Shown here: in pieces, positions 50,607 to 64,000 of the stretch | How the letters are laid out: each line of letters begins with the position of its first letter | Position numbering within the stretch: the stretch's first letter is position 1 | NCBI RefSeq assembly: GCF_917563915.1 | Contig: NZ_CAKJTI010000008.1 | Span: 112,954-176,953 of the forward strand | Origin: Bacillus rhizoplanae | GTDB taxonomy: Bacteria > Bacillota > Bacilli > Bacillales > Bacillaceae_G | Reading direction: 5' to 3' | DNA length: 64,000 nt | Position numbers and translations under genes: made by a program | Notes under the pieces: model-generated | What the model saw: only the letters and a program-made list of their open reading frames with translations | Databases searched by the model: none | What the model was told of the DNA's origin: nothing

Positions 50607-52988
50607 CTAGTTATTATATAATTTTATTTCTGAAGCTGAAGCAAATCCACTATGCCCTGATACCACTTCAAGCTTTACATACTGAGCATCTACTTTACTG
50701 AAACTTGCATTCTTTGTAAGTTTATCATCTGCCCAAGTTCCAGTAGCAACCTTTGTAAAGTTAACTCCATCTAGACTTGTGTATATATTATAACTAGTTA
50801 TGTTACCATTAGAATTACTATCTTGTCTTGGAACATAAGCTAATTGTGATATACTAGTAACTTCATTAAGCTTTATCGTAATGTATGGAGCCTTATCACT
50901 GCCATTCCAAAACGTATGCCACATTGTTGCCCCGTTTCCGTCAACTGCATTTGCAGCAGCATTACCACCTGAATCTTGCTGACTTGAGAAACCTGCAACT
51001 GATAAGTTTTTGTGCGGTATTAATCCTACTACAGCCGTATCAGTAAACTTTAAGTTAACTGCATCACTTGCTGGATTTGAACCAACAGCAAACTTTCTAA
51101 CTGTTAACGTAACATTTCCTGTTAAATCCGGTAAATTAGGAGAAGCAGGATTATATTTTGTCCAATTCGAACCTTGATCGATGCTGAATTCCATCGTACC
51201 GTCTATACCAAAAACTAAATTCTCATCATCATTTGAAGAAACATTAACTTTACCAGCTTTTCCAATTGGAATTAATAAAGGCTGCTCTGTTCCAATCACT
51301 CTTGTTAAAATACCGTTAGTTGAATTGATTGCTGCTATTTCTTCATTACTAAGAAGCATATCATCGCTTGTAGCAGCTTTATACGTTTTTCCTCCATCAA
51401 TACTATATTCCGTATCAGTTTTAATTCCCATTAATTTTCCTGCATTTACTCCATCAAAACTAAATGTAGCAAGGCGCAACCCCAAACTTGGCAGTTGGGC
51501 TGTTATATTATTAGCTACTTGCTTTTGATTTACATTCGTTATTGTGGAGAATGCATTTAATATATTTAAAGTATATTGCTGAAGCTTAGCTCTATCATCT
51601 GTATTCAGAACATGGCTTCTAATTTGAGTAAGAAGATCCATCATCGGTCTTGGCTCATTAGCAAAAGAAGAAATGATGCTGCTGTTTAATTCTTGCCACT
51701 GCTCATCCGTTACACTTGGATTTTGTAACATGAGAGAAACGTAATCTTTCCATACTAAAACATTAATCGGTAAAATATTAGTGGCTGCCTTATAAATAGC
51801 AATTTTGTTATCTGATGAAGTCATTGCCTTAGCTAACCAACGTAATCTCTCGGATTGATCTAGTTTTGATTGATCAAGTTCAGCATCTTCAAATAGTAAT
51901 ATGTACGGCACTTGATTTTTCAAGCTATTATCTGACCAAGGAATAACAGTTGCAGCATGATGCTCCGATGCACCCCATCCAAATATATCATTTCCTAAAT
52001 TCCAAGAGGATGGTTTGTCATTCCATATGAGTGCGCAATGCCCAGGTTGTCCAACAGGCATAGCTGCCACACCAAAGGCTTGGCTTACTTGCGTACCAAA
52101 CTTTGAAATACCACCGCATACCGCACCATCTCTGTAAATTGAGGAAAGATTCCAACCTAAACCATAAAATGCATCATTTCCAGCTTGAACGCTAATCCCA
52201 TCTTTGTTATATGTTACATATTTAATCAAATATGCACTTTTTCCTATATTATCTTGACTTTTAAGTTCTGGATGTTCCGTATTAATCATGTTTCTTGCCC
52301 AAGTTAAATCTTCTTCTGGTGACCAAGTATTCACTACTAATCTTAAATGCCAAACATCATATGTTCTAAAAACAGGAAGTAACTCATTATTTTGATCTGC
52401 TGATTTATAATGTTGGTACCTCGTTAATGGATTAATAGGTTGATTGTTTGTCCAATATTTTATAGGTTCAGCATGAGCTAACGATGTAGCTATCGCTAAT
52501 TTTAAATACAATCCTTCATGAGAATCTGCATCCGTATTCCATATTGTATTCCATATCTCAAGTGCATTGACTGGATTTTTTCCAGTTGGACTGCCACCTT
52601 CAAGATAAGTATTCATCACATCTGTATTCTTCATCGCCCAGCTAAGAAATTTCTGATGGTCAGCATCTTTTTTAGCGAATGTATCCATTGCTGAAGCACC
52701 TGTTTGTGATATGAATTGCCACTGAGCCAAAGCTGCTGCAAATACTGGGTCTGTAAGTTTACTTTGCAAATTCGCTTCAGTGAGTTCCCCAACCTTTTCA
52801 TTTAAATATGTTGTAAGATAACTCAAATGATCTTCAAAATTACCATTTGCAATTGCCTGATCTGTCTTTTGCTTCAATGTTTCTTGAGTCAACGACACCG
52901 TTTCAGCTGAAACTTTCGTATAAGGAATCGTAACAAAGCTCCCTGAAATAAGTGACATAGTTAATACTAAAGATAAAGTTCTTTTCAA
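50607..52988 (-). CDS. Secreted transglutaminase-like/discoidin protein under c-di-GMP control
   Basis: A 793-residue exported protein from the TTG at 52988, seven bases after GGGGGG. The signal peptide ends near KVSAET. At about 285-335 a transglutaminase-like core appears: RDGAVCGGISKFGTQVSQAFGVAAMPVGQPGHCALIW, with C291 and H317 as the likely catalytic pair and the N-D of GNDIFGW as the third position. About 510-650 holds beta-sandwich modules (TEYSIDGGKTYKAA, MEFSIDQGSNWTKY). The last 130 residues are a discoidin (F5/8 type C, CBM32-like) domain: NAVDGNGATMWHTFWNGSDKAPYITIKL. It likely binds carbohydrate or matrix. No sortase motif. Whether it cross-links, cleaves or only binds is unknown. 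Confidence 0.8.
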   Translation of the reverse strand: MKRTLSLVLTMSLISGSFVTIPYTKVSAETVSLTQETLKQKTDQAIANGNFEDHLSYLTTYLNEKVGELTEANLQSKLTDPVFAAALAQWQFISQTGASAMDTFAKKDADHQKFLSWAMKNTDVMNTYLEGGSPTGKNPVNALEIWNTIWNTDADSHEGLYLKLAIATSLAHAEPIKYWTNNQPINPLTRYQHYKSADQNNELLPVFRTYDVWHLRLVVNTWSPEEDLTWARNMINTEHPELKSQDNIGKSAYLIKYVTYNKDGISVQAGNDAFYGLGWNLSSIYRDGAVCGGISKFGTQVSQAFGVAAMPVGQPGHCALIWNDKPSSWNLGNDIFGWGASEHHAATVIPWSDNSLKNQVPYILLFEDAELDQSKLDQSERLRWLAKAMTSSDNKIAIYKAATNILPINVLVWKDYVSLMLQNPSVTDEQWQELNSSIISSFANEPRPMMDLLTQIRSHVLNTDDRAKLQQYTLNILNAFSTITNVNQKQVANNITAQLPSLGLRLATFSFDGVNAGKLMGIKTDTEYSIDGGKTYKAATSDDMLLSNEEIAAINSTNGILTRVIGTEQPLLIPIGKAGKVNVSSNDDENLVFGIDGTMEFSIDQGSNWTKYNPASPNLPDLTGNVTLTVRKFAVGSNPASDAVNLKFTDTAVVGLIPHKNLSVAGFSSQQDSGGNAAANAVDGNGATMWHTFWNGSDKAPYITIKLNEVTSISQLAYVPRQDSNSNGNITSYNIYTSLDGVNFTKVATGTWADDKLTKNASFSKVDAQYVKLEVVSGHSGFASASEIKLYNN

Positions 52989-53049
52989 AATAAGCCCCCC
53001 TTTTTTTGTTTTCAACCGTTTACTCTTGCATCATCCTCCCTTACATAAA

Positions 53050-53111: not shown

Positions 53112-53122
53112 CCTAACCTTTC

Positions 53123-53195
53123 GGCAACTGGCTGACATAGCGGCATGCACCTTAGTCCCTATAGCTTTGCGTCATTAGCTTTCACTAATTTTGCC
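53123..53195 (-). promoter_or_regulatory. Cyclic-di-GMP-I (GEMM-I) riboswitch aptamer
   Basis: Minus-strand sequence matches the GEMM-I consensus: P1 GGCAA/TTGCC; a hairpin ATTAGT-GAAA-GCTAAT with the GNRA loop that docks; the invariant GACGCAAAGC joint; then AGGGACTAAGG and GTCAGCCAGTTGCC. It sits about 135 bases upstream of the discoidin-protein start with a terminator between, so it acts at transcription. On or off cannot be told by eye. 53200-53550 is AT-rich; GTTACCGTTCACCGTAAC near 53393 is a dyad of unknown role, and 53440-53465 is a bcr1-like fragment. Confidence 0.88.
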
Positions 53196-53554
53196 TTTAT
53201 CGAATTTAATTCTCGAATCGAATTATAGCAATATTTAAAACGTATTTATAGATTTTTTAATTAATTTAATCAATTTTTACTTATCTTAAAAATTTAGTTA
53301 AAGTTTATATGTTTAAAATTTCCATTTCATACTGTGGCATTTCTTAATTGTGTACAAAATTCTTCTATAGTTTTTTGCCACTAGTTATTATAGTTACCGT
53401 TCACCGTAACGTATCTAAATGCGGTTTTTATTTAACTTTCATCAATCGGGCTTTTACAGACAAATACATCTAGTACAAATTATAATGATTTTTTGAAAGC
53501 ATATTAAATTCCACAAAAAAGTAAGTTACAATAGAACAAAGAAAAGAATCTACT

Positions 53555-55000: not shown

Positions 55001-55189
55001 GAAGGAAAGAACAAAAATGGGTACAACTGCGCACAAGAAAAAACCGCATATGAAACAAATGGTGTAGAAATTACTGAAACCATCCTTCTATCAAAGGATC
55101 AATTGGTAGTTAGAAGCGAGACAATCATGACTCAGGAAGACAATTTCCTGAATAACAAAAGGAGAGGAATAGAGCTATGTCTACAATAA
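55001..55189 (+). pseudogene. Remnant of an unidentified gene overlapping the MFS start
   Basis: Sixty-two codons are open after a TGA at 54998, with no ATG or GTG start. The text (AYETNGVEITETILLSKDQLVVRSETIMTQEDNFLNNK) has protein-like composition. It ends 12 bases inside the MFS gene. It looks like the C-terminal end of a lost gene. I do not recognise the family. Confidence 0.4.
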
Positions 55190-56565
55190 CTGCAGATGTG
55201 AGCATGAAAAAAACTCAGGAATATAATGCTAAGAAAGCAGTACCTATTACCTTACTGTTATTTCTATTATGTTTGGTAATTGACAATTCGTTTAAGATTA
55301 TTTCTGTTGATATGGCAAAAGATTTTCACATTTCAGCAACAACAGTTAGCTGGCAAGCAACTCTAGCTGGCCTTGTGATTGGAATTGGAGCAGTGGTTTA
55401 CGCAGCTTTAGCGGATTCCATTAGTATCAGAAAACTTTTTAGCGTTGGTATTATTTTAATATGTGTCGGTTCAATCATGGGGTATATTTTTCAACAATCG
55501 TTTTTACTAGTTGTTATCTCACGAATGATCCAAACTGCAGGTTTAGCATCAGCTGAAACATTATATGTTATCTTTGTAACAAAACATTTACCTGCAAATG
55601 AACAAAAGAAATTTTTAGGATTAAGTACAAGCAGTTTTGCTCTTTCACAACTTATAGGTGCATTAACTGGAGGTTATATTTCTACGTATTTTCATTGGAC
55701 AACTCTGTTTTTACTTTCTTTAGTAACACTTTTCACACTTCCATTTATTTTAAAATATCTTCCTAAGGAAGAAACGAAAAACAGTAATGTAGATGTATTA
55801 GGATTATTCCTAGTTGGAACTATTTCAGCATCCCTTCTATTATATATTACCAATTTCAACTGGATGTACCTTATCTTATTTATTGTTGCAATTGCCTTGT
55901 TCCTTGCTTATATCAGCAAGAACTCAAAAGCTTTTATTGGAATATCATTCTTTAAAAATAAACAGTTTATCTCATTACTTGGAGTTGCATTTGTAATTTA
56001 TTCTGTACAGTTAGCATATATTTTCTTATTTCCATTCTTGCTTGAAAAGATTTATGGTTTGCAGCTAGATACCATTTCACTATTATTGATTCCAGGCTAT
56101 ATCGCAGCTGCTATAGTTGGGGCTCTTTCTGGAAAAATTGCGAAGGTTCTAGGAAGCAAACAATGTATTACAATCGCTATGTCTAGCATTATAGTCAGCT
56201 TACTATTAGGCGGATTCTTTATAAACACTTCTGTTGTTGTATTCGTGATATCCATGATTTTATTCTCTAGTTCATTTGCATTCATGTATGCACCATTACT
56301 TGATTCTTGCATTTGTACGATTGAAAAAGAAAAAACAGGAACAGCAATCGGATTTTATAATTTAACACTTAATGTTGCTATGTCAATCGGAATTGCCTAT
56401 ACAGCAGCAATGATGGACCATTCTGCAATGCGACAAAGCTTCTTCGGGATTACAAGCAATTTGGATGCTTCCATGTTTAGTAATATCCTATTCATTCTCG
56501 TACTCATTACCCTTTTCAGTTTATCTCTATACTGGGTATTAGTAGGACGAAAAGCGACAAAATAG
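55177..56565 (+). CDS. MFS transporter, drug:proton antiporter type
   Basis: A 462-residue membrane protein with about 14 predicted segments, as in the DHA2/Tet(L)-like branch. The start follows AAAGGAGAGG. The cytoplasmic loop after segment 2 carries ALADSISIRKLF in the place of motif A, and a motif-C-like GLSTSSFALSQLIGALTGGYIS is in segment 5. The opening of segment 1 is ITLLLFLLCLVIDNSFKIISVDMAKDF. The substrate cannot be inferred. It probably responds to the upstream GntR regulator. Confidence 0.85.
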   Translation: MSTITADVSMKKTQEYNAKKAVPITLLLFLLCLVIDNSFKIISVDMAKDFHISATTVSWQATLAGLVIGIGAVVYAALADSISIRKLFSVGIILICVGSIMGYIFQQSFLLVVISRMIQTAGLASAETLYVIFVTKHLPANEQKKFLGLSTSSFALSQLIGALTGGYISTYFHWTTLFLLSLVTLFTLPFILKYLPKEETKNSNVDVLGLFLVGTISASLLLYITNFNWMYLILFIVAIALFLAYISKNSKAFIGISFFKNKQFISLLGVAFVIYSVQLAYIFLFPFLLEKIYGLQLDTISLLLIPGYIAAAIVGALSGKIAKVLGSKQCITIAMSSIIVSLLLGGFFINTSVVVFVISMILFSSSFAFMYAPLLDSCICTIEKEKTGTAIGFYNLTLNVAMSIGIAYTAAMMDHSAMRQSFFGITSNLDASMFSNILFILVLITLFSLSLYWVLVGRKATK

Positions 56566-59085: not shown

Positions 59086-59116
59086 AAAAAACGAAGGGGT
59101 TTATCCCTTCGTTTTT
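59086..59116. terminator. Terminator of the nucleosidase gene
   Basis: AAAAACGAAGGG pairs perfectly with CCCTTCGTTTTT across 7 bases, 22 bases past the stop codon. Confidence 0.85.
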
Positions 59117-59137: not shown

Positions 59138-60019
59138 TTATTTATTTGGCATCGAATCTATATATTTTTTAACTACTTCATATACATATTCTTGATTTGC
59201 CGCTGCGGTATTGGGGTTGTATTTTCCGCCGTTTACTTTATTGTTAGATAATACTCGAATCCCTAAGAATGGTACATCATAAGCTTCTGCGATTTGCGCT
59301 GCGGCAGCACCTTCCATTTCTTCTACAGATGTACCGTATTTTGTATGGAACCATTTAATTCTATCAACTTCATTATTCCAAACGTCTGCAGAACCTATAG
59401 TACCTTCAACAACCTTACCCTTAGTGTATTTATCTTTTACTGCATTAGCAGCTGCAAGTAAGTCTTTATCTCCCTCATAGTAATGGATTTTTTCAGCATT
59501 AGGGTCTTCGCCTGCACTTCCTTCAGAAGCCATTAAGTCCATAGGTTTCCACGTAGTTGGATCAATTCCTTGGCTTTCATCCTTATTTCCTGTTTTTAAT
59601 GAACCTAGGTTTACAGTTCTTTGTCCTAAAACAATATCAAATACGTTTAAATTAGGATCATGTCCACCTGATGTTCCTTGGTTAATAATCGCTATAGGCT
59701 TATATTTTTCAATAGCCACCGCTGTAGCAGCTGCTGTATTTTCCATTCCTTTACCTGTTTTCTCAACGATTACAGGATAGTTGTCTACAGTTCCTTTATA
59801 AAATACAAAAGTTCCAGATTTTTCCTCTTTCACATTTTTTAACCTTTTTGCAAATTTTTCAGCTTCTATTGGCATTGGACCTTGAATTAAGATAGGTTTT
59901 TGATTGCTTTTTGCCTCAGTTACTTGTTTTGAACTAGCATTACATCCTGCAAGTATTGAGAATGACAATGCGATAGTAGTTGCTAGAGAAGCATATTTTT
60001 TTAACATGTTGTTCTTCAT
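59138..60019 (-). CDS. Lipoprotein nucleosidase (PNP/MTAN superfamily) under a guanine riboswitch
   Basis: A 293-residue lipoprotein from the ATG at 60019 (GGAGAG site). The lipobox is ILAGC at about 24-28. The rest is the phosphorylase/nucleosidase fold: ILIQGPMPIEAEKFAKRL, VIVEKTGKGMENTAAATAVAIEKYKPIAIINQGTSGGHDPNLNVFDIVLGQRTV, GTIGSADVWNNEVDRIKWF and SVEEMEGAAAAQIAEAYDVPFLGIRVLSNN. The EMEG with E and the late R-V-L-S-[DN] are the ribose and base contacts; here the MTAN catalytic Asp position reads N (LSNN). Close relatives are called methylthioadenosine/SAH nucleosidase. The guanine-class riboswitch suggests that extracellular purine nucleosides are the real substrate. Confidence 0.85.
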   Translation of the reverse strand: MKNNMLKKYASLATTIALSFSILAGCNASSKQVTEAKSNQKPILIQGPMPIEAEKFAKRLKNVKEEKSGTFVFYKGTVDNYPVIVEKTGKGMENTAAATAVAIEKYKPIAIINQGTSGGHDPNLNVFDIVLGQRTVNLGSLKTGNKDESQGIDPTTWKPMDLMASEGSAGEDPNAEKIHYYEGDKDLLAAANAVKDKYTKGKVVEGTIGSADVWNNEVDRIKWFHTKYGTSVEEMEGAAAAQIAEAYDVPFLGIRVLSNNKVNGGKYNPNTAAANQEYVYEVVKKYIDSMPNK

Positions 60020-60081
60020 AAATAATCTCTCCTTTTTCTCTTGTTGTTTGATACACTCGAGGTTTTGGTCCAAAGAAAAAA

Positions 60082-60119
60082 GTTCTAGAAATTGTAGAAG
60101 AATCTCTACTTTCTAGAAC
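60082..60119 (-). terminator. Riboswitch terminator
   Basis: GTTCTAGAAA pairs perfectly with TTTCTAGAAC, with a second GTAG/CTAC pair inside, followed on the minus strand by TTTTTTC. It lies between the aptamer and the nucleosidase gene. Confidence 0.9.
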
Positions 60120-60211
60120 TACGGTAGTCAAAGTTAATTAAGCAAAAAATGAGGCGAATGCTAAATTATAGAACGGTAGCGGCTCAATACACCGAACGAC
60201 CGAATACTTTA

Positions 60212-60282
60212 ACCCGTAGTCTAGTTCTTTCATTGGGAACTAGGTAGAAACGCTCGGACCATATTACCGAGTATATACGAGT
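60212..60282 (-). promoter_or_regulatory. Purine riboswitch aptamer, guanine class
   Basis: On the minus strand P1 ACTCGTA pairs with TACGGGT, P2 CTCGG with CCGAG, and P3 CTAGTTC with GAACTAG. The junction carries the invariant AATATGG, GTTTCTACC and GACTACG. The specificity base in GACTA is C, which selects guanine; adenine riboswitches have T there. Terminator and gene follow, so purine should switch the gene off. 60283-60698 is otherwise AT-rich with no gene I can support. Confidence 0.92.
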
Positions 60283-60698
60283 GATGATATTTAAGATTAT
60301 TACATTGGTAATATAACAAACTTTTAGTGAATACGCAATAAAAACATGAACATTTTTTTCTAAAATTTGAAAAATGTTCGTTTTTATCGATATAACAGAT
60401 AGAAGATTTTGTTTCTTAATAGATTCGGTCGTAAAAAACTTAAAATCCATATACTAGACTAGAATTAGTTCATTAATCAAAAATATGAAGTAAAATGATT
60501 TCTCTTTGAAGTTATATAACTGTACAGTAATATTGTGCTATGAAAATAATAATGCATTTGAAAAAGGAGCTAGCATCGCTAAATTAAATCTTAATAAGTA
60601 TACAAATATGGTAGTAGTCAACCGAAAGATTACGATGTCTTTACCGAACAAGCAACTACGCTTTCACAAGAAATACAATAATGATTTCGATAAAAAAA

Positions 60699-62565: not shown

Positions 62566-62700
62566 TGAAAACTCCCGCCACTTATCTCCTTCGGATCTTG
62601 AAGTGGGGGTTTCTCGTGTATCACCTTCAAGAGATGCTTAACACGAGTGGAGTTGACACAGCTGCCTGATGGCACAACCCCTCTATTCCATCGGCAAACA
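62566..62700 (-). ncRNA. Candidate omega RNA / right-end guide RNA, copy 2
   Basis: It shares ATAGAGGGGTT, AACTCCACT and GAAACCCCCACTTCAAG with copy 1 at the same spacing. In copy 2 the protein stops at the TAG of ATAGAGG, so conservation beyond that point is RNA, not protein. The guide would be the bases from 62564 leftward. Confidence 0.5.
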
Positions 62701-64000
62701 CCTTTGGAACTGCTTTTTTAAGATGTTATAGGAACCATTCACATCTGCGTTCAGTAATTTGTTCTCTTTCGTACGATACAAGCCACGTTTGATACGTTTT
62801 CCACTGAATACAGGGATATCTTCCTCCCCGTAAGTGGGGATATCATCATTGTCTAAAAAGGATGCCTTACTTGTATACGATTCTTCCACGACTTGTACAG
62901 TAATACCTTTTCGTTTTGCCTTATAGGTGATCATTTCAATGAGTAGATTATGCGGGATATGGCAGAACGATTGATTCTGTCGTTTCCCCATTTCACTGTT
63001 TTGTTTCCAAGATGTATTTTTCCCAATCACAATCATAGAAACTTCCTGTTGTATTGCCAGCTGGACAATGTGATAACTCATTTTATGAAAGAGATCTTTT
63101 ATTTTAAGAAACCGTTTCTCATGAAGCCTCTCTAAACGTTTTGATGTGTGTGGTCCTTCTTTTGATTCTTTTCCATGACGAAGAATACCCAGTAAATGAG
63201 CCTTTTTCTTGTTGTAGTATTGATTAATACTTTTAATCACATTGCCCTTTACTAACACAGGAGTAGCCCCTATATTCGTTGTGATAGTTGCAATGTTATT
63301 GATTCCTAAGTCAATACTCATATAGCGATTATTGTCGACATGCTCAGGTGCTGGCTCAGGTTGTTCTGTCACAATCTCCACTTTAAACTTCCCATAAGCA
63401 GGAGAAACACGTACCTCTTTCAGATTTTCGATATATCCGAACAATTTACCGATATTTAATTGTATGCTTGTTTTTGGAAAACGAATGTACTTATCTTGGA
63501 GTTTACACACTTGATTCGTGAAAACAATTTCTTTCATAGATGATTTCATATATTTGGGAATGCGAGGTCTGCCTATAAAAGTGGAAGAATGTTTCTGATA
63601 TGCTTTCATAGAAGCAAAAAATGATTTCCAGTTTTGATATAACTTTTTCATAACTGCTTGATTCGTTTGCGCTGGCAAACTCATATAGTCTTGTTGCTTC
63701 ATTGTTTTAAACAAACAATCTAGGAAGTGATACGATAAGAACGATTTCTCTTTTGTCGGGAATGCAAACAGATTACATTTGATTTTTTTCCGTTCTTCTA
63801 CCAGCTTTTCTTTCTGCTTTTGCACACGTTTTTGGTACGCACGAAGTTGATTTTCATTCATAGCTTCAATATGTGCTTGCAATGTATGGAGAACTTCTTG
63901 CTGAAGTGGCTGTAATGGTTGATCCGTACGTAAGGCCGTATACACTTGGCGAATATAGAAGTTTGTTGTATTGTAGAGATTTTTTGCATTTTGACACATT
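62683..64000 (-). CDS. tnpB: TnpB (OrfB), second copy, 5' end outside window
   Basis: 438 residues are visible from an internal methionine; comparison with the copy at 41766 suggests about 30 more N-terminal residues lie beyond the edge. RuvC-I is RYMSIDLGINNIATI and RuvC-III LLNADVNGSYNIL. The RuvC-II strand reads MIVIGKNTSWKQ, with G in place of the usual E, as in copy 1, and VEESYTSKASFLD follows. No zinc-ribbon cysteines. The two proteins are clearly homologous but far from identical, so they are separate, older acquisitions, not a recent duplication. Confidence 0.9.
   Translation of the reverse strand, partial: MCQNAKNLYNTTNFYIRQVYTALRTDQPLQPLQQEVLHTLQAHIEAMNENQLRAYQKRVQKQKEKLVEERKKIKCNLFAFPTKEKSFLSYHFLDCLFKTMKQQDYMSLPAQTNQAVMKKLYQNWKSFFASMKAYQKHSSTFIGRPRIPKYMKSSMKEIVFTNQVCKLQDKYIRFPKTSIQLNIGKLFGYIENLKEVRVSPAYGKFKVEIVTEQPEPAPEHVDNNRYMSIDLGINNIATITTNIGATPVLVKGNVIKSINQYYNKKKAHLLGILRHGKESKEGPHTSKRLERLHEKRFLKIKDLFHKMSYHIVQLAIQQEVSMIVIGKNTSWKQNSEMGKRQNQSFCHIPHNLLIEMITYKAKRKGITVQVVEESYTSKASFLDNDDIPTYGEEDIPVFSGKRIKRGLYRTKENKLLNADVNGSYNILKKQFQRCLPME

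Follow-up and report, generated by a model that had tools for sequence, protein, structure and literature searches.

A conserved guanine-class riboswitch and PurBox-like pair ahead of a putative exported purine nucleosidase gene in Bacillus rhizoplanae

In a 64,000-nucleotide stretch of Bacillus rhizoplanae DNA (hereafter the window), a gene at 59138-60019 encodes an exported protein of the fold common to purine nucleoside phosphorylase (PNP) and 5'-methylthioadenosine/S-adenosylhomocysteine (MTA/SAH) nucleosidase (MTAN). Upstream of it lie a purine aptamer, an antiterminator, a terminator and a PurBox-like pair, and the protein itself combines an export signal and this fold with an Asp-to-Asn change at the catalytic position of MTAN. 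The interpretation to which we give slightly better than even chances is that the gene is a single-gene member of the purine regulon, held by two brakes (PurR and guanine), and that its product is an exported nucleosidase for 6-oxopurine nucleosides. All features are on the minus strand unless stated otherwise.

Guanine aptamer, terminator and antiterminator

Rfam cmscan of the whole window returned two elements, one of them a purine aptamer that matched RF00167 over its full length at 60300-60197 (77.1 bits against a gathering cut-off of 37, E 5.2e-12). Its J3/1 reads GACUA in the Rfam-aligned sequence, so the specificity base is C; at position 74, C marks the guanine class and U the adenine class (PMC11477304). 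By its sequence the aptamer is a guanine-type purine riboswitch. An adenine-class aptamer is ruled out by GACUA, and a nucleoside-sensing variant by the fit of the window aptamer to the canonical consensus (cf. PMC9295807). The first-pass annotation of this DNA had described a complete purine aptamer with C at the specificity position and proposed the covariance-model search against the Rfam purine model, which bears that description out. In an alignment of 49 leaders (the window and 48 of 58 usable leaders from relatives), the pairs of P1-P3 were kept in 98.2% of 931 cells.

The aptamer is followed by an intrinsic terminator, a 16-bp hairpin with a 2-nt bulge (60119-60082, -15.4 kcal/mol) and six T at 60081-60076. 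A simple terminator scan did not list this hairpin, probably because of the bulge. In the 49 leaders its pairing was found in 94.1% of 579 cells, and 8 of 12 pairs were changed on both sides (29 cells), which was equalled by none of 500 shuffles. The strong terminator that the first-pass annotation placed ahead of the gene is thus confirmed, with covariation in the relatives added. The terminator finder used on the wider set gave none in 6 of 67 sequences and the wrong hairpin for loci L021 and L064.

Between the two elements, the 3' end of P1 and the stretch that follows it (60207-60221, sharing the 3' strand of P1) pair with the stretch just ahead of the terminator (60119-60133, touching the terminator base). 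The 10-pair core of this central helix, the antiterminator, was paired in 95.5% of 488 cells of the 49 sequences and in at most 49.9% when the strands were slid. Of 61 sequences, L021 and L064 included, 48 had a duplex energy better than that of every one of 100 shuffles and 13 did not. From the window alone, a longer antiterminator that extends into P3 had seemed possible; it was discarded on visual inspection, since relatives with AACTGG or AACCGG in P3 lack a complementary terminator arm.

In the B. subtilis yxjA switch, a central helix opens P1 at its base, an event that guanine blocks (PMC9756952). The window leader likewise has a central helix that shares P1 and abuts the terminator, and from this yxjA-like layout it would work as a transcriptional OFF switch for guanine. 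Two properties of the helix weigh against this. Four of its pairs are changed on both sides, each in one sequence, so its covariation is modest; and in its minimum-energy fold the window leader contains antiterminator and terminator together, because they overlap by only a few nucleotides, on which their exclusivity therefore depends.

Spread of the unit and the PurBox-like pair

The linkage of switch and gene was followed in two samples. In the first, one genome per species was searched and the best 80 of 121 loci were kept; the second was an even draw of 299 genomes from the order of Peribacillus butanolivorans (genome G001, which holds locus L001). Of the 80 relatives, 76 have a purine aptamer upstream of the gene, 66 found by pattern and 10 of the remaining 14 by the Rfam model. 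Since the pattern demanded ACTA, its 66 matches are no independent count of the specificity base; among the ten loci found by the model only, eight have GACTACG, and L002 and L017 were unmatched by the short pattern. The order-wide sample contained the gene in 57 genomes, which share species with the 80 loci, as 58 copies (E 1e-50 or better), and an aptamer on the gene's strand was found at 55 of these (20/20, 19/20 and 16/18). The three copies without it are L177, a second copy matched without its N-terminus, and the divergent homologues L203 and L204. A class-wide draw of 200 genomes gave the gene in four, including P. butanolivorans itself and one weak match with an internal stop. Overall, switch and gene co-occur in dozens of related species, and the linkage in 76 of 80 and 55 of 58 cases rules out a chance association. 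Exceptions that count against the preferred interpretation are four relatives (L013, L061, L069, L076) at which the Rfam model found no aptamer up to E 0.5, and the Photobacterium, Pantoea and Acinetobacter homologues (L141, L142, L144), Gram-negative sampling being restricted to plasmid records, at which no Rfam purine riboswitch was found. In the tree, these three form no single group and are placed among Bacillaceae rows, the place of L141 being unsure because of its long branch.

The unit is also present on a 362-kb plasmid of Metabacillus dongyingensis (L143, 5729-6879), so it may travel. Two species have two copies (L149 and L177 in genome G404; L070 and L076), the second copies L177 and L076 being without an Rfam purine aptamer; only L076 reads LAN, not LSN, in the catalytic loop. 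Matches to the BsrG small RNA family were seen upstream of the switch at L027 (2155-2408) and L059 (3879-4134).

A further layer, overlooked by the first-pass annotation, is a conserved pair of putative PurR-type operator boxes directly upstream of the promoter. In the window, PurBox 1 (ATAAAAACGAACATT) lies at 60373-60387 and the inverted half-site PurBox 2 (AAATGTTCATGTTT, with TTCA instead of TTCG) at 60342-60355, ahead of a putative -35 element, TTGCGT (60333-60338), and, after a 17-nt spacer, a putative -10 element, TATATT (60310-60315), both assigned from their position. As a small correction, the regulatory region extends upstream to about 60387, further than the stretch described before. 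The motif CGAAY-N24/25-RTTCR stands at a fixed place, beginning 91-101 nt ahead of the CTCGTATA of P1, in 67 of 70 upstream regions (window included), a count to be read as a post hoc test on relatives because TTCA was allowed only after the first box scan. It covers those of 81 sequences (the window and the 80 loci) in which the short aptamer pattern matched and 300 nt upstream were present; shuffled regions had the pair in 0.04 cases on average and 2 at most (200 rounds). The pair was not at this place in L074, L076 and L080, and the best pair of the first scan stood some 195 nt upstream in L074 and L080.

In B. subtilis, a PurR site comprises two 14-bp boxes that have CGAA/TTCG at their centers and are 16-17 bp apart, and at the pur operon the boxes lie just upstream of the -35 (PMC8789054). 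The geometry in the window agrees with these, including the expected CGAA-TTCR distance of 26-27 nt, and PurR would be the protein that binds the pair. P. butanolivorans has a like pair, with TTCG, ahead of purE, xpt and a putative pbuG. Six purine switches were found in this genome, preceding the nucleosidase-like gene, purE, a NupC/NupG-type transporter (424.8 bits, slightly below the model cut-off of 442), xpt-pbuX, guaA and a 460-aa protein beside guaA, which has no NCBIfam name at 1e-30 and which we take to be PbuG. Evidence on the other side is that no such boxes occur at two of the five other switch targets of this genome (the transporter and guaA), that the strict TTCG second box is present in 29 of the 67 regions, the window and the rest having TTCA, and that in the first box scan the window's own score was reached by 1 of 40 shuffles; 37 of the 70 regions did not beat all 40. 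The conserved aptamer and antiterminator together with this pair support the OFF-type control by guanine that had been claimed.

The exported protein and its active site

The coding sequence begins most probably with ATG 60019 and not with TTG 60073 of the longer open reading frame, behind a probable ribosome binding site region (AAAAGGAGAGA, 60026-60036). It ends with the stop codon at 59140-59138, and the terminator scan found a terminator after it at 59087-59116. Its 293-aa product, a predicted purine nucleosidase, matched PF01048 (NP-I fold) with E 1.7e-39 and 136.1 bits (cut-off 25.1). The signal peptide (59942-60019) contains the lipobox SILAGC (core LAGC) with Cys26, as in bacterial lipoproteins, in agreement with the earlier description of a lipoprotein of the PNP/MTAN fold. 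By pattern, the lipobox is present in 62 of 80 relatives; the other 18 retain a signal-like hydrophobic N-terminus, several of them with a plausible signal peptidase I site after it (by eye), and in the second set it is absent from 16 of 59 proteins. The loss counts against a surface enzyme that is lipid-anchored throughout, and the anchor is not essential to the idea. Export seems constant across the family and anchoring varies; of the surface enzyme proposed in the first-pass annotation, the export is supported and the lipid anchor weakened. The loss of the Cys with the leader kept suggests anchored and released forms.

Structure comparison used a 39-row alignment and five models (pLDDT, the predicted local distance difference test, from 82.9 down to 59.2). 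Asn259 (codon 59243-59245) aligns with the catalytic Asp of MTAN, D197 in E. coli, which the window protein lacks. Asn is found here in 80 of 80 relatives (LSN in 79, LAN in L076), in 59 proteins of the second set (57 by pattern, two divergent ones as ISN by eye), and in the Photobacterium, Pantoea and Acinetobacter homologues. The first-pass annotation had pointed out this N after LS. Each of ten whole genomes checked also encodes a canonical MTAN, distinct from the exported protein, that has the catalytic Asp. Also in favor of another specificity, MTAN mutants in which Asp is replaced by Asn crystallize with intact MTA or SAH. Among related phosphorylases, Asn is associated with 6-oxopurines and Asp with adenosine, and exchanging one for the other shifts the preference: the D204N mutant of B. 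cereus adenosine phosphorylase loses 430-fold in kcat on adenosine and prefers inosine, and human PNP N243D gains adenosine (PMC5074518).

Other positions in the pocket differ as well. Lys90 and Ser165 of the window protein align with MTAN I50 and F105, which we take to be the positions of the 5'-alkylthio pocket. E52, common to the window protein and MTAN, stands at the Arg of DeoD LPGDPLR, and N113 at the Arg of DeoD IRVG; in DeoD these two Arg bind phosphate, and Glu and Asn in their places suggest water rather than phosphate as the partner. With Asn259 and the changed 5' pocket, this makes hydrolysis of inosine or guanosine the first choice: the protein is probably catalytic, would be a hydrolase rather than a phosphorylase, and may have a 6-oxopurine nucleoside as its substrate. 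It appears improbable that the exported protein is a nucleoside phosphorylase, or a nucleosidase whose substrate is a nucleotide or another purine riboside. Apart from the two replaced Arg, ribose 1-phosphate made outside the cell would presumably be lost, and Lys90 is replaced by Met or Val in one homologue from Acinetobacter and in a divergent one.

The same Asn could also mean that the protein does not cleave at all. Asp-to-Asn MTAN mutants hold MTA or SAH in the active site, judging from the titles of PDB entries 1z5o, 4p54 and 4oy3, and lipoproteins often serve transporters, so a catalytically silent lipoprotein of the NP-I fold, naturally changed from Asp to Asn, might capture or deliver purine nucleosides. 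The strict retention of the other catalytic and ribose-binding residues (E52, E236 and R255 in 39 of 39 rows) speaks against such a role, to which we give little credence.

A stronger challenge to a 6-oxopurine nucleosidase is that the protein may be what several records of its family are annotated as, an MTA/SAH nucleosidase. Once exported, it would release adenine from extracellular MTA, SAH or 5'-deoxyadenosine for salvage, as proposed for Borrelia Bgp, and the guanine control would be general purine control. Exported MTANs acting on MTA do exist in Borrelia (PMC7557402). The closest solved relative, an Aeromonas protein (5b7p/5b7q, 41-42% identity over the aligned part), is a periplasmic MTA/SAH nucleosidase according to its deposition, the title of which contains 'functional analysis', and has the same LSN, so that the argument from Asn weakens if this relative was measured on MTA. 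On TIGR01704 the window protein scores 72.6, just 1.2 bits below the MTAN cut-off of 73.8, and three of five other exported homologues tested, all with Asn (L142, L144, L203), pass this model. Those three fail NF004079, the MTA/SAH nucleosidase equivalog, and L145 and L141 fail both models, as does the window protein (96.5 on NF004079 against a cut-off of 169); canonical MTANs from two related genomes reach 370 and 377.5 on TIGR01704. With both scores below the cut-offs and Asn259, a canonical MTAN identity was not accepted, the reservation being the homologues that pass TIGR01704. Given in addition the Asn in all 80 relatives, Lys90 and Ser165 in the 5' pocket and the separate MTAN in every genome checked, an exported MTA/SAH nucleosidase is rather unlikely. 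The earlier claim of a specificity other than MTA has gained evidence from Asn259 and the separate MTANs.

Elsewhere in the window, cmscan found a c-di-GMP-I riboswitch at 53120-53205 (minus strand, 78.5 bits), directly preceding a gene (50607-53015) whose 802-aa product looks secreted and has an F5/8 type C domain. A major facilitator superfamily transporter at 55177-56565 (plus strand) is most like Tet(38) at 514.9 bits, far below the cut-off of 925, and is a related efflux protein, not a Tet(38) resistance gene by NCBI's rule. The open reading frame at 62683-63999 (minus strand) presumably encodes a TnpB/OrfB-like transposon protein.

Proposed role and known systems

The preferred interpretation, a doubly repressed exported nucleosidase, would work as follows. 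When purines are plentiful and phosphoribosyl pyrophosphate (PRPP) is low, PurR would sit on the two PurBoxes at the promoter. In transcripts that are still started, guanine would bind the nascent aptamer and stabilize P1, the central helix would be blocked and the terminator would stop RNA polymerase. Purine shortage would lift both brakes, and the MTAN-branch enzyme, exported and as a rule lipid-anchored, would be made. Outside the cell it would hydrolyze 6-oxopurine nucleosides (inosine and guanosine, possibly from lysed cells) at the N-glycosidic bond, and the freed bases might enter through permeases that belong to this regulon as well. For the enzyme that had been proposed to release bases from extracellular nucleosides at purine scarcity, the OFF control and the export are supported, and the base release is predicted.

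A broader proposal, which we rate just short of even, is that the MTAN branch gave rise to an exported 6-oxopurine nucleosidase through the natural equivalent of the 'dead' D197N, and that many Bacillaceae use it under PurR and a guanine riboswitch to obtain importable bases from inosine and guanosine outside the cell. To our knowledge, a hydrolase of plain inosine or guanosine would be a new activity in this fold. If the proposal is true, a laboratory inactivating mutation would be a natural specificity switch, and the PurR/guanine-riboswitch regulon would gain an extracellular step. The annotation as MTA/SAH nucleosidase would then mislead for dozens of Bacillaceae species and some Proteobacteria, since the way these proteins are regulated, their location and their active site all speak for extracellular nucleoside salvage.

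Taken singly, the components all belong to kinds already known, and exported MTAN-fold proteins have been described (Borrelia Bgp and MtnN; the periplasmic Aeromonas protein). In the literature searched, outside which most subscription papers lie, no gene for an exported MTAN-like protein was described as preceded by a guanine riboswitch, and there was likewise no account of PurR-type boxes and a guanine switch combined with an exported MTAN-fold protein with a natural Asp-to-Asn change. The B. subtilis yxjA (nupG) switch has the same kind of guanine aptamer and a central helix competing with P1 and the terminator (PMC9756952), but it controls a nucleoside transporter, whereas the window switch precedes the gene of an exported enzyme. 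Variants that sense guanine nucleosides also place a purine switch ahead of a nucleoside-cleaving enzyme (nucleoside hydrolase genes); they have a variant aptamer, a nucleoside ligand and predicted ON control (PMC9295807), in contrast to the canonical consensus and OFF layout of the window. Bgp and MtnN of Borrelia burgdorferi are exported MTAN-fold proteins proposed to feed purine salvage, as is suggested here, but they act on MTA, and the available part of the source mentions neither a guanine switch nor PurR control (PMC7557402). The Aeromonas hydrophila protein (PDB 5b7g, 5b7n, 5b7p, 5b7q) differs in its Gram-negative periplasmic location and was deposited with MTA/SAH as substrate. Finally, the canonical cytoplasmic MTAN (MtnN/Pfs) has the fold and most catalytic residues in common with the window protein, from which it is set apart by the signal peptide, the Asp-to-Asn change, the changed 5' pocket and the purine control of the latter, and by a long branch between the two families in the tree.
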